Positions 2,371-15,500 of a stretch of DNA of 30,365 bases are shown here, piece after piece. The first letter of the stretch is position 1, and the number at the start of each line of letters is the position of its first letter. The DNA lies in the IMG/VR virus record IMGVR_UViG_3300027741_000191, positions 1 through 30,365 of that record; one strand, 5' to 3'. This stretch comes from a virus. A model generated the notes under the pieces. The model made no database searches. It was not told the origin of the DNA and saw only the letters and a program-made list of their open reading frames with translations. A program made the translations under genes and the position numbers.

Positions 2371-3981
2371 ATGCCAACCATTGTTCAAGTAAATGTGACG
2401 CAGACGGTTGGCGCAGCGCCCGCCACTCTGCAAAAGACGGGCGCGCTGATCTCCCAAGGCGGGACGACCACCAGCCCGGGCACCGCGACGCTCATCACGC
2501 AGGAAGCCGATCTGACGGCGATCCTGACGGCTCCCGCCCCGCTAACTCAGGTGGTGGTGGCCGGAGCGCTTGTGACAGCCACGACGGTTTCGCCGCATGG
2601 CTATACCGTCGGAAGCCAGATCGTTTTGACGATGGCTGGCATCACCGACGGTGGGTTGGGGCCGTCGGCTTATAACGGCACCTACCTCTGCACCATCACC
2701 AGCACGACGCAATACACCTACAACCTGGGCCAGGAATTGATCTTGGCTTCGGGCACGGGCGGCACATACGTTCCGCAAAGCGCGATCCAGCTTACCGCGA
2801 TGGGCAACACGTTCTTTGCCCAGGGTTCTGGCTTGTCCTGCTATGTGCTGGAGCTTGGGCCGGGCAACACGGAAGATGGCGTGGCCGCGCTGGCCGCATA
2901 CATCCAGGCCAACCCCAACAGCGACTACACGCCCGGCGCGGAAGGCTATTTCTACGCTTACGTTGTGCCGAAACAGTGGGACGGCAACGCGGATTTCCTG
3001 GCCCTGCTAGCGGAATTCGAATCCACCACGGCACGCACCTATTTCTTCATCACAACCACGCTGGCTACCTACAACAGCTACACCAACCTGATGAAGTGCG
3101 CGTTTACGCTGATTGAATCGCCGCAATTCGGCACCTACGGCGCAAACGAACTGATCGGCGCGGTTTGGACATCGGGCGCCATCACGTTCACGACCCTTAA
3201 CACCAGCGGCATTTCTAAAGGCGACTGGTTCACCATCGTGGGCTGCACACCCGCAGAATACAACGGCACTTATCAAGCCGTTGTGGCCAATGGCGTGGAC
3301 ATCACCGCCTATAAGGCGGTTGACCCTGGCGCGCTTACCGTTACCGGCAGCCTCAAGGCCAGCCTGTATGGCAACGCGGGCGCTCCGGTTACGGAATTCA
3401 CGGTGGTGTCCGCCTTCTGGAACTTCCTGGCTTACGAACCCAGCGCAGCGAACCTCGTTGCACCGTTCGCCTTCAAGTATCTTTACGGCGTGACGCCGTT
3501 CCCGACGCGCGGCAACAACGCTCTGCTGACCACGCTCAAGGCCGAAAGTGTCAACGTCGTGGGCACGGGCGCGGAAGGCGGCATCAGCAACACCATCCTG
3601 CTCTGGGGCACCACAATGGATGGCCACGATGCCACTTATTGGTATTCAGTGGACTGGGTGCAGATCAACGTTGACATCGCCATTTCCAACGCGGTGATCA
3701 ACGGTTCGAACAACAGCCAGAACCCGCTGTATTACGACCAGAACGGCATCAACCGGCTTCAGGCGGTAGCGCAAACGGTCATGCGCAACGCCATCTCTTT
3801 TGGCCTCGCGCTCGCGCCCATCACGGTCAATGCGGTGCCGTTTGTGACCTACGTTTCGCAGAATCCGGCGGATTACCCGGCGGGCATTTATCGCGGCCTC
3901 TCGGTCACCTACACGCCGCAGCGCGGCTTCATCCAGATCGTGTTTTACGTCAACGTCTCGTCGTTCCCGGCTGGCGGCTGA
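2371..3981 (+). CDS. Tail sheath protein (DUF3383-type) with two inserted beta domains
   Basis: The product is 536 residues, with ribosome-binding site AGGAGA 7 bases before the ATG. The N-terminus (MPTIVQVNVTQT) and the C-terminus (YTPQRGFIQIVFYVNVSSFPAGG region) match the layout of contractile-sheath proteins of the DUF3383 type; the next gene is tube-like, the usual sheath-tube pair. Two extra beta domains interrupt it. Residues about 59-133 carry HGYTVGS and YNGTYLCTI, and residues about 262-334 carry ISKGDWFTIVG and YNGTYQAVV. Both resemble the small FCCH-like domain seen elsewhere in this window and would probably project from the outer sheath surface. Sheath identity is fairly sure; exposure of the inserts is inference. 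Confidence 0.85.
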   Translation: MPTIVQVNVTQTVGAAPATLQKTGALISQGGTTTSPGTATLITQEADLTAILTAPAPLTQVVVAGALVTATTVSPHGYTVGSQIVLTMAGITDGGLGPSAYNGTYLCTITSTTQYTYNLGQELILASGTGGTYVPQSAIQLTAMGNTFFAQGSGLSCYVLELGPGNTEDGVAALAAYIQANPNSDYTPGAEGYFYAYVVPKQWDGNADFLALLAEFESTTARTYFFITTTLATYNSYTNLMKCAFTLIESPQFGTYGANELIGAVWTSGAITFTTLNTSGISKGDWFTIVGCTPAEYNGTYQAVVANGVDITAYKAVDPGALTVTGSLKASLYGNAGAPVTEFTVVSAFWNFLAYEPSAANLVAPFAFKYLYGVTPFPTRGNNALLTTLKAESVNVVGTGAEGGISNTILLWGTTMDGHDATYWYSVDWVQINVDIAISNAVINGSNNSQNPLYYDQNGINRLQAVAQTVMRNAISFGLALAPITVNAVPFVTYVSQNPADYPAGIYRGLSVTYTPQRGFIQIVFYVNVSSFPAGG

Positions 3982-3997
3982 GTAGGAGAAAACAACC

Positions 3998-4444
3998 ATG
4001 GCAGCTAATCCACAAGTCGCTCAGGGCACGCTCAACCGGTTACGGGGCAGCGTGGTCATTCCGGACTATCCGGCACTGCAAGTCACGGCGCCCTTCCTGG
4101 GGCGCCCTGGCATCGCCATCGCCTTTGAAGGCGAAACGACGACGATGATCCCGACGATGACGGGCACCATCACCTCGCCGTTTCCCTATCAGATGGTGAC
4201 GGTGACCATTTCGCTGCTCAAGACCCAGAACCTTGCGGCTCTCTGGGAGGCGCAGCGTCAGGCGTTGAGCACGATTGGCGACATCACGGTGACGCCCGAC
4301 ACCACGTCGCTTCCGGCTTACACCTTCAACAACTGCGCCATCCAGAATGTGCGTGAGTTGAATTTCGCAGGCGAGGACGCGAGCTATTCCGTCACCGTCA
4401 GCGGCTACTACCAGATCAACAACAACCTCTGGAATCTGGTTTGA
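3998..4444 (+). CDS. Tail tube protein
   Basis: The gene encodes 148 residues with ribosome-binding site GTAGGAGA before the ATG. The pattern is that of myovirus inner-tube subunits: an N-terminal arm (NRLRGSVVIPDYP), beta strands alternating with short turns, a central helix (LAALWEAQRQALSTIGD, residues about 77-93), and a conserved-looking ending NNCAIQNVRELNFAGEDASY ... VSGYYQINNNLW. Position right after the sheath gene, and the following tail-assembly chaperone and tape measure genes, complete the canonical order. The protein would stack as hexameric rings inside the sheath and form the DNA channel. Confidence 0.85.
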   Translation: MAANPQVAQGTLNRLRGSVVIPDYPALQVTAPFLGRPGIAIAFEGETTTMIPTMTGTITSPFPYQMVTVTISLLKTQNLAALWEAQRQALSTIGDITVTPDTTSLPAYTFNNCAIQNVRELNFAGEDASYSVTVSGYYQINNNLWNLV

Positions 4445-12503: not shown

Positions 12504-12512
12504 GGTGCATCA

Positions 12513-15500
12513 ATGTCTGTCCCATACACATTCGGCACTGCCGTCGGAACAACCCAGCTTGCGAAGCTGGACACGAACTTCTCGACGCCATTAACGCTGG
12601 GATCAACAGCGCTGACGTTGGGCGGCACGTTCACGACGATTGCGGGACTGACGCTGACCAGCCCCGTGTTGACGACTCCGAACATCGGGACGCCAAGCGC
12701 CGCCGTTCTGACAAACGCAACGGGCCTCGCCTTGGGCACCGGCGTCACTGGCACGCTCCCCGTCGCTAACGGCGGCACGGGGCTTTCCGCCACACCCGCA
12801 GTGGGTGAAATCGACATCGGCACGGGCACCGGCTTTTCGCGCACCACCCTGACCGCTGGCACAGGTATCGCCATCAGCAACGCTGCCGGGGCCGTCACTA
12901 TTTCGGCCACCGCCGTGACTGGAATCACGGGGCCGACCGGTCCATCCGGCCCGACAGGTTCGACCGGCCCAACAGGCGGCAGCGGTCCCACAGGCGTTAC
13001 CGGCGCGTCTGGTCCTACGGGCGCAACCGGTGCCACGGGAACGGGGCCAACGGGCGCAACGGGTATCGGCTACTCAGGGCTGACTAGCGCGTCTTCTGCG
13101 GTCATTGGAACGGGCGCAAAAGCATTCACCACCAACACCGCTTCCACCGCAACGGCGTTTGCAATTTCTCAGCGGGTCCGCGTGGCCAGCACTGCGTCGC
13201 CTTCCAATTTCATGGAAGGCACAATCACTTCATTTTCGGGCACCAGCATCGTCGTCACTGTTGACGCCATCGGCGGCAGCGGAACCTTTTCTGGCTGGAC
13301 GTTCTCGGCTTCCGGCGCGATGGGTGCGACCGGCTCTACCGGCGCGACCGGGACAGGTCCGACCGGCCCAACAGGTGCGGGCGTTACCGGCGCGACTGGT
13401 GCCACGGGTGCTACAGGCGCAACCGGGACTGGCCCGACTGGTGCCACAGGTGCAGGCGTGACGGGTGCAACAGGCGCAACGGGCAGCACCGGTCCAACCG
13501 GTGCAACAGGCGTTACCGGCGCTGGCGTGACAGGCGCAACGGGTGGCACGGGCGCTACTGGAGCAAGCGGCACTGGCCCTACAGGCGCGGCAGGTTCCAC
13601 CGGTGCTACAGGAGCAACCGGCGCCAGCGTGACCGGTGCTACAGGCGCGACTGGCCCCACCGGCGCAACCGGCATCGGTTATGCTGGCTTGACCAGCGCC
13701 TCGGCGGCGGTGATCGGCACGGGCGGGAAAGCCTTCACCACCAATCTCGCAGCCACGGCAACTGCTTTTGTCGTCGGGCAGCGCGTGCGCGCCGCCAATA
13801 CCGCCACGCCTTCAAACTACATGGAGGGCATCGTCACTTCGTTTTCCGGAACGAACATCGTCATCAATGTGGATGCCACTGGCGGCACAGGCACTTTCTC
13901 CGGCTGGACTTTCTCCGCCGCAGGCAACGCGGGCGCTACGGGACCGACCGGCGTCACGGGGCCGACCGGCGGCGGAGCGGTTTTGCCAATTTCCAGCGCA
14001 GACATTTCATTCTTGCAAGCGGGAACAGGCGCCGTTGTTCGCACCGGCCAAGCCAAATATCGGGATTTTGTCTCGGTGTTGGACTTCGGCGCCGTGGGCA
14101 ATGGTATCGCGGACGATAGAGTTGCCATTCAGAACGCGCTGAACACTGGCAAAAATGTCTATCTTCCGCCCGGCAACTACCTCATCTCTGACCCTGGCCT
14201 TTCGATGTTTACTAATGGCCAGCGGATGTATGGCGAAAGCGGTGCGGGCTGGCTAACGATCATTGAATGGAATAGCACGAACGGCAGCAACAATAACGCC
14301 ATCACTATTTCTGCCCTTCAGCATTGCATTATTGAATCCATCAACATTCGGCGCAATCCTAGCAACCCTGTCAATTTAACAAGCGGTTTTGGCGTTTCGT
14401 TTGCAAATGGCGCATATTTCTGCGAAGTGCGAACGTGCAAAATCACGGGCACCGGTAACGGCATTTCGATCACGGGCACCGGCAATCAAGTTATTGATTG
14501 CGAAATGCGGGAATTCTCCGGATTGTATGGCATCCGATACTATGGCACATCGGTGCTGCCAGGATTGCGCGCCGTTCTCGACCGGGTTTTGATTGATAAC
14601 CTTTTGGTTATCACCTCAATTTCGGCTACGTCGCCTGCGGTCATCACGACTACCCATAATCACGGCCTGAGCACTGGCAATACTATCACAATTCAAGATG
14701 TCAGCGGCACAGGAGGAATAGCGGGCATCAATGGCTCGCGCGTGGTAACGGTATTGTCGTCTAATACACTCAGCGTTGCGTATAACGCCACCGGAACAAC
14801 ATATAACGCATATAGCGGCTCTTTGTATGGGCCAAGTAACTTTATTCACGTTGTATATGATTCATACGTCCACAGCTTGATCATTACGGCTTGCGCGTTC
14901 TTGTGGGGCGGCACTGCCGTTTATATGACGGACTACGCCAACACAACTGGCTCTTACCCGACTTGGTTGCACGCATTTGACCTTGAGTGCGATCACCAAT
15001 GGAACACCGCCGTTATCTTGAACGGCGGCGAAGGCTGTTTTATTACCACAAGCTGGATCGGGTCTTCGCTTGCTGGCAACGGCCTTGTCGCTATGCCTCC
15101 ATCGACGGGCGTCAGCGGTTGGCGCGGCGAATTGCTGCTTAGCAACAGCCGCATCATGGGCAATGCGCAAACCGGCATATTGCTGAACGGGGGTGTTGAT
15201 GCCTGCATCAATAACTGCGCTATTGGAGATAACGGCACGCAAACTCCGAATACATTCAACGGGATTACCGTAGCAGCGGGCGTTTCCAAATTCTCCATCA
15301 CGGGAAATAAAATTGGCGATGCTATCGGGACGACCTCTAATCAACAGGCATACGGCGTTTACATTTTTACTGGCGCTTCCGACTATTATCAAGTGATTGG
15401 CAACATCCTGTATGGCAACACCGTTGGCCAGATTGGTGATTTTGGCAACGGTTCAAACAAGATCGTCCAAAATACCAACACCAACGGCGGAGGGATGACG

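Follow-up and report, generated by a model that had tools for sequence, protein, structure and literature searches.

The viral DNA record IMGVR_UViG_3300027741_000191 (30,365 nucleotides, the whole of which is here called the window) contains tail genes of a contractile-tailed phage, and it raises the question of whether a single small beta domain has been inserted five times into four unrelated virion proteins. A first-pass annotation of the sequence had proposed as much, placing two segments in the tail sheath (here S1 and S2), one in a small baseplate-region protein (PL), one in the baseplate J-like wedge (J) and one in the tail fibre (F). All five were found again, each 72-77 residues long and with limits no more than 30 bases from those first given (Table 1), and no sixth copy was detected at E<0.1 among the 296 frames of the window. 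As judged from sequence comparison, they are almost certainly copies of one mobile module that has been gained or lost repeatedly, duplicated in tandem and copied between genes.

Pairwise alignments, assessed with 2000 shuffles per pair, sort the copies into two sub-groups. The wedge and fibre modules are identical at 44/65 positions (p<=0.0005). In the other group, PL shares 22/51 positions with S1 and 19/69 with S2 (both p<=0.0005), and S1 and S2 are related at p 0.002. Comparisons of the wedge or fibre module with those of the sheath or PL are weak by this measure (p 0.011 to 0.19). This weakness, together with the presence of S1 and J copies in most relatives, is what could be said for a reading that takes the five segments for core parts of their proteins or for chance likenesses. 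Nevertheless, the two groups are joined, because profiles link them both ways. Against the S1 profile, S2 has an E-value of 5e-11 and PL one of 4e-20; against the wedge profile the values are 8e-5 for PL, 1.7e-3 for S1 and 1.8e-3 for S2, the copies of the window being included in the S1 and wedge profiles of their own site. A strict wedge profile was built from 52 of the 75 single wedge modules, leaving out the window, its near-twins and the modules matched by sheath or plug profiles; its E-values and those of the reverse profile are scaled to 22,492 sequences. It recovered PL (7e-4), S1 (6e-3) and S2 (1.7e-2) of the window. Over the collected segments it matched 40/90 S1, 1/27 S2 and 10/35 PL (a set that contains one sheath row) at E<1e-3, and 82, 24 and 21 of them at E<1, a level reached by 0/237 shuffled modules. 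In the opposite direction, a profile of 140 sheath and plug modules matched the wedge copy of the window at 3e-4 and its fibre copy at 4e-3. A tblastn search with the plug-like protein (the one carrying PL) reached sheath genes of Yersinia phages via residues 70-135 (9e-6). Shuffles and profiles thus bear out the claim of one domain family across the five segments, in which the direct link between S2 and the wedge appears the thinnest while S2 is firmly tied to S1 and PL.

Comparison with relatives lacking the insert, a check that the first-pass annotation had itself suggested, speaks to whether the segments are inserts. Viral contigs were scanned with an alignment of the sheath and one of the wedge, and the 80 top-scoring loci out of 532 and out of 364 confirmed were kept, 160 in all. 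The occupancy counts cover these best-scoring loci and their neighbours, with rows merged if their last 150 residues agree, so that near-twins may remain. Segment lengths fall into discrete classes, namely none, one unit or two units. The S1 site is empty in 5 of 96 rows, single in 89 (one of them cut by a contig end) and double in 2, while the S2 site is empty in 68, single in 27 and double in 1 (n=96). For the wedge site the counts are 4 absent, 75 single and 9 double (n=88), and for PL 55 absent, 34 present and none double (n=89, the sheath row L024:9941 having been taken out). Among six named relatives, S1 occurs in 5/6 and the wedge copy in 4/6, S2 and PL in 0/6; Pantoea phage PdC23 is a named relative with S1. 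Two loci, L011 and L015, have a clean empty wedge site in a wedge core 77-78% identical to that of the window. For the fibre, not one of the 105 records that tblastn returned from named phages spanned 80% of the query, and no empty site was found there; the empty sites were taken from viral contigs. In these the module is present in L169, L170, L171 and L174 and absent from L172 and L173, which are 69% and 61% identical to the window fibre over the 193 residues before the site. Orthologous homologues without the module therefore exist for all five sites, two in the sheath and one each in PL, wedge and fibre. As is expected of an accessory domain, the module occurs in several unrelated virion proteins and is absent from homologues of each, so that the segments are inserts, as had been supposed. 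The view that they are core parts or chance likenesses is ruled out by the profiles, the shuffles and the empty sites, to which the match of the wedge copy to a solved fold can be added, and we regard it as close to inconceivable.

A second kind of optional sheath module was also seen. The sheaths of Shewanella phage QDWS (L006, 12980-14302) and of L156, L161, L162 and L164 are without S1 and have another insert of ~69 residues elsewhere, which in QDWS spans residues 130-198 and holds the motif GSGYTxAPTVxF twice.

The history of the sites was followed on host trees built without the insert columns, on which gain and loss are not distinguishable. The minimum numbers of state changes are 1 for S1, 6 for S2, 2 for the wedge and 6 for PL, versus shuffled means of 4.9, 24.2, 4.0 and 27.6, respectively. 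The module has therefore been passed on mainly by inheritance, and S2 and PL are the two sites at which it was gained or lost repeatedly. By the occupancy of aligned sequences, the S1 and wedge copies are old and mainly inherited, since 91/96 and 84/88 relatives carry them, while S2 and PL come and go more. Relatives also have the module at further wedge sites (J residue 136 in one contig, residue 446 in two), in a head-region protein encoded next to the major capsid gene, and in the gene that follows J. Some wedge tandems consist of a wedge-type copy followed by a copy scored best by the S1 profile. Occupancy in whole units, empty sites, and extra sites and host genes all agree with the earlier picture of a mobile module spread over sheath, baseplate and fibre. 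One of the head-region carriers, pdc_05 of Pantoea phage PdC23 (L003, 5303-6175), is annotated 'endosialidase', a name that may come from likeness to the endosialidase barrel alone.

Copying between genes was sought among nearest neighbours in a set of 270 copies, whose sole fibre copy is that of the window. By label, 30/270 had their nearest neighbour at another site; on reading, 18 of these proved to be mislabelled or cut (long plug frames, frames truncated at contig ends, the head protein of L008), leaving 12, of which 11 are between different proteins (one, L079, being a cut frame of unknown family). Four fibre copies were added in a separate comparison. The fibre module of the window is closest overall to those of the near-twins L169 and L170, and it is nearer to the wedge module of the window (score 213) than to the same-site modules of L171 (136; 35/77 identical) and L174 (97), which speaks for copying between wedge and fibre. 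A fresh copy made in the window was considered and is ruled out by a dS of 1.44 despite this closeness.

Substitution rates tell whether the modules are kept. The non-synonymous rate (dN) of S1 is 2.26 times that of the sheath core with a synonymous rate (dS) ratio of 1.02 (128 sheath pairs, 83 unsaturated), and its dN/dS ratio, omega, is 0.24 versus 0.095. For wedge modules the dN ratio to the core is 1.36 and the dS ratio 1.11 (84 pairs, 66 unsaturated), with omega 0.13 versus 0.10. The pairs share sequences and are not independent, and the figures for S2 and PL come from 11 and 4 pairs only. Omega is well under 1 yet above that of the core, so the modules are kept under a constraint looser than that of their hosts; at the level of these alignments, purifying selection and faster change than in the hosts are shown for the S1 and wedge modules. 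Wholesale replacement of S1 modules is unsupported, as module and core dS agree. These rates also bear on the suggestion that the module is a tolerated passenger of little use to the phage, spread into permissive loops by recombination between copies. Scattered S2 and PL occupancy, tandem copies and copies across proteins would suit such a passenger, but median omega values of 0.13-0.24 and the shortfall of tree changes (1 to 6 versus shuffled means of 4.0 to 27.6) indicate that the module is kept, which makes this account improbable.

The fold was examined on models of the wedge module and of the whole sheath. The wedge module, modelled from a 131-row alignment, has a mean predicted local distance difference test (pLDDT) score of 96.5, and Foldseek against the PDB placed E1 enzymes at the top (1.7e-4; first 46 rows, ubiquitin or ubiquitin-like E1 enzymes; then the phi92 endosialidase). 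In VIA comparisons it superposes on human UBA6 216-291 with Z 13.2 (1.2 A, 72 residues, 31% identity), on the T1 tail tube 19-95 with Z 8.6, and on the phi92 259-338 and K1F 427-506 endosialidases with Z 8.5 and 7.7. Baseplate, fibre and 'E1 FCCH' proteins are among the viral models matched, and no Ig-fold title stands among the 50 structure matches listed for this module. The sheath model (pLDDT 91.6) matches solved sheaths over ~310 residues and, lower down, E1 chains at 1.4e-3 to 4.1e-3 with a poor overall root-mean-square deviation; its S1 and S2 segments present their strands in the same order.

The Pfam family E1_FCCH (PF16190; cut-off 29.5 bits) gives 31 and 32 bits on the wedge stretch, which pass, 27 on the whole wedge protein and 27.6, 28.5 and 22.4 on the fibre copy, while 0 families of Pfam, E1_FCCH included, were found on S1, S2 and PL, whose membership comes from profiles built in this analysis. 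The FCCH-likeness first suggested therefore holds directly for the wedge copy, on whose model the E1_FCCH fold itself was found, falls just under the cut-off in the fibre, and extends to S1, S2 and PL through the profiles. None of the hosts has the E1-type setting, an insert in an E1 adenylation domain. Homology of the module to FCCH is nonetheless very probable. Other families come less close: the endosialidase barrel End_beta_barrel (PF12195, cut-off 35 bits) gives 13.0 bits on the fibre copy, although in some copies it and E1_FCCH weakly match the same stretch, and Big_2 occurs in 2/138 copies (best 0.037). The top fold matches of the wedge module are FCCH. From the models, the module is probably also akin to the phage endosialidase beta-barrel.

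Kinship with eukaryotic E1 is strongest on the wedge side. A profile search of PDB sequences gave 13 rows under E 0.1, all of them E1 enzymes. The strict wedge profile matches E1 FCCH at 5e-14 and 9e-13, against 6e-7 for the best S1 module, and the sheath/plug profile does so at 4e-3 and 1.4e-2; by these sequence scores, wedge-type modules stand nearer to the E1 of eukaryotes than to their sheath-type counterparts. Among the 270 copies, one wedge module shares 53% identity with the human E1 FCCH stretch across 57 residues. When 50,697 phage records were searched by tblastn with Drosophila E1 FCCH, 31 of them matched at E up to 1, with wedge proteins at the top (2e-6, 40% identity, 99% of the stretch). 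Against named phages, the window wedge module found no match at E 0.01 and that of the relative L059 found 54 records. The likeness is already carried by the Pfam model and by some phage annotations, and no discussion of it was found in the literature searched on FCCH and phage, subscription journals lying outside that search. Among the domains that a passage of the review PMC11354881 lists as unique to eukaryotes are FCCH of NAE1 and SAE1, together with the cysteine-bearing domains found in UBA1, UBA6 and UBA7. We tentatively raise the possibility, which sequence scores would allow but which we do not favour, that eukaryotic E1 FCCH was captured from a mobile module native to prokaryotic extracellular and phage virion proteins. 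Held equally loosely is its sequel, in which an E1 ancestor would have acquired the module by insertion, just like the phage wedges, and its binding face would later have been used for ubiquitin. The finding makes the origin of this ubiquitin-E1 domain open to direct test.

The module also has a wide range beyond the window. Compared with PHROG, 131 copies gave 87 matches to phrog_9998 and 33, 30 and 29 to families of virion structural proteins; a major tail protein family was matched by 19 copies and a tail fibre family by 10. A DNA motif pattern led to module-bearing frames in at least 22 of the 80 viral loci listed and in 11/54 genome loci, and PF16190 matches occur in 1/14 control genomes. 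Among the families of its viral hosts are those of the tail fibre, central fibre J, minor tail, wedge and head.

As for function, a self-contained beta module of the E1-FCCH fold could be accommodated in the loops of virion proteins of unrelated kinds and leave these intact, and many exposed copies along sheath, baseplate and fibre would make weak, repeated, multivalent contacts with envelope glycans that hold the virion near the cell. The module is likely to be exposed and to face outward, as other sheaths and the T1 tail tube suggest. Glycan contact is modelled on the K1F endosialidase barrel holding polysialic acid, described in part of PMC12632334 as a polysialic-acid site and a hotspot of host discrimination. 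Carriers with CBM_5_12 (2/27 viral hosts), Glyco_hydro_64 (2/11 bacterial hosts) or chitobiase-type domains were counted in its favour. Contact with glycans or the envelope may well be the main use, a reading to which we give slightly less than even confidence. Several points weigh against it. Carbohydrate-linked hosts are few (2/27, 2/11 and 1/11), and sheath exposure is taken from other sheaths rather than from an assembled model. The Z-scores of 7.5-8.6 for endosialidases and T1 lie in or near the range that unrelated folds can reach, and PF12195 reaches its cut-off in none of the 138 copies, 13 of which it matches with an E-value of 0.1 or less (best 4.4e-5). According to the same part of PMC12632334, the K1F barrel tolerated most substitutions, and its discriminating positions fall some within the aligned range, if the numbering of the paper is that of the PDB, and some outside. 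Finally, E1 FCCH contacts ubiquitin and not sugar (PMC12355090, in part), so that the ligand cannot be read from the fold.

This last contact has its own corollary, a protein-binding module whose partner would be a surface protein of the host or a second protein of the virion, in the way that its closest solved relative contacts ubiquitin in the sections of PMC12355090 concerned. The copies, though, are diverse (mean column identity 27%) and no constant partner can be named, so that such docking is doubtful. A structural use, in which modules cement neighbouring subunits or stiffen the tail, would profit from the dense lattice that two copies per sheath subunit presumably form, and a passage of PMC9230969 proposes that extra sheath domains stabilise tails. 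It is unlikely all the same, given that relatives dispense with the module at each site, that fibre, wedge and head-region hosts have no common neighbour and that S1 changes faster than the sheath core. Glycan contact remains the reading we prefer.

The host genes are listed in Table 1. The small baseplate-region protein scores 13.8 bits against the Pam3 gp18 plug, below the cut-off of 24.2, and this match is the sole source of its weak label 'plug-like'. The fibre holds another duplicated module of ~78 residues (residues ~187-266 and ~393-472) amid collagen-like stretches. It has matches in 9 frames of the collected loci, although the collagen-like parts may inflate the repeat counts. Elsewhere in the window, a 688-residue frame (22922-24988) has 14 Y-x-W motifs and propeller-like repeats (AFSPDG...YPW...) and is perhaps a virion beta-propeller. 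By eye only, 18855-19775 encodes a protein of two similar halves (FLQWP...QLDYF...) and 27910-29601 a 563-residue protein resembling a glycosyltransferase fused to TPR-like repeats.

Table 1. Host genes and module copies in the window
Feature	Position	Strand	Remarks
Tail sheath gene, 536 residues	2371..3981	+	PHROG tail sheath 4.5e-30; model against solved sheaths Z up to 26.4; two modules
Module S1	2542..2772	+	Sheath residues 58-134; six strands in sheath model
Module S2	3148..3363	+	Sheath residues 260-331; five strands, order as in S1, in sheath model
Small baseplate-region protein, 163 residues	7865..8356	+	phrog_8737 (unknown function) 8e-20, residues 1-64
Module PL	8048..8275	+	Plug-like protein residues 62-137
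Baseplate J-like wedge, 473 residues	10373..11794	+	Baseplate_J 31.1 bits; baseplate wedge subunit 4.4e-26
Module J	11168..11395	+	Wedge residues 266-341; E1_FCCH 31-32 bits, cut-off 29.5
Tail fibre, 1378 residues	12513..16649	+	Pfam: collagen-like, pectate-lyase-like and S74 chaperone parts
Module F	14604..14834	+	Fibre residues 698-774, past start of beta-helix part; wedge profile 2.6e-15

Insertable domains have a precedent in the Ig-like accessory domains of phages, reportedly a subject of Fraser 2006. The concept is hence already known, and what is new is the module, its sites and its kinship with E1. With E1_FCCH (PF16190) the module shares the fold, the sequence as seen by the strict wedge profile and the habit of lodging inside another domain; it differs in that the phage hosts are virion parts and not E1, and that the sheath and PL copies are invisible to the Pfam model. 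With the endosialidase beta-barrel of K1F and phi92 (PF12195) it aligns over 71 residues at Z 7.5-8.5, but at 21-25% identity and below the Pfam cut-off, and that barrel sits in a sialidase. The Fraser 2006 work is cited in portions of PMC9230969 and PMC10684548, the former of which quotes Ig-like domains as small, beta, optional, found in several kinds of virion protein and exchanged sideways, with weak glycan contact proposed. The module resembles them as a small optional beta domain exchanged sideways among several virion proteins, whereas its best solved match is FCCH. Passages of PMC9230969 also describe additional domains attached to the sheath core away from the tube, as here, but these are mainly Ig-like sandwiches, and the paper nowhere uses the word FCCH. 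The T1 tail-tube domain (gp41 16-94, PDB 9l0f), called Ig-like and said to extend outside the tube in part of PMC11945409, matches the FCCH-type module too. It and the host-discriminating endosialidase barrel are suggested to be the same kind of part. Beside the Ig-like domains, the module adds a second class of domain insertable on the virion surface, one that comes with empty sites, a predicted structure and a class of ligand that can be tested.

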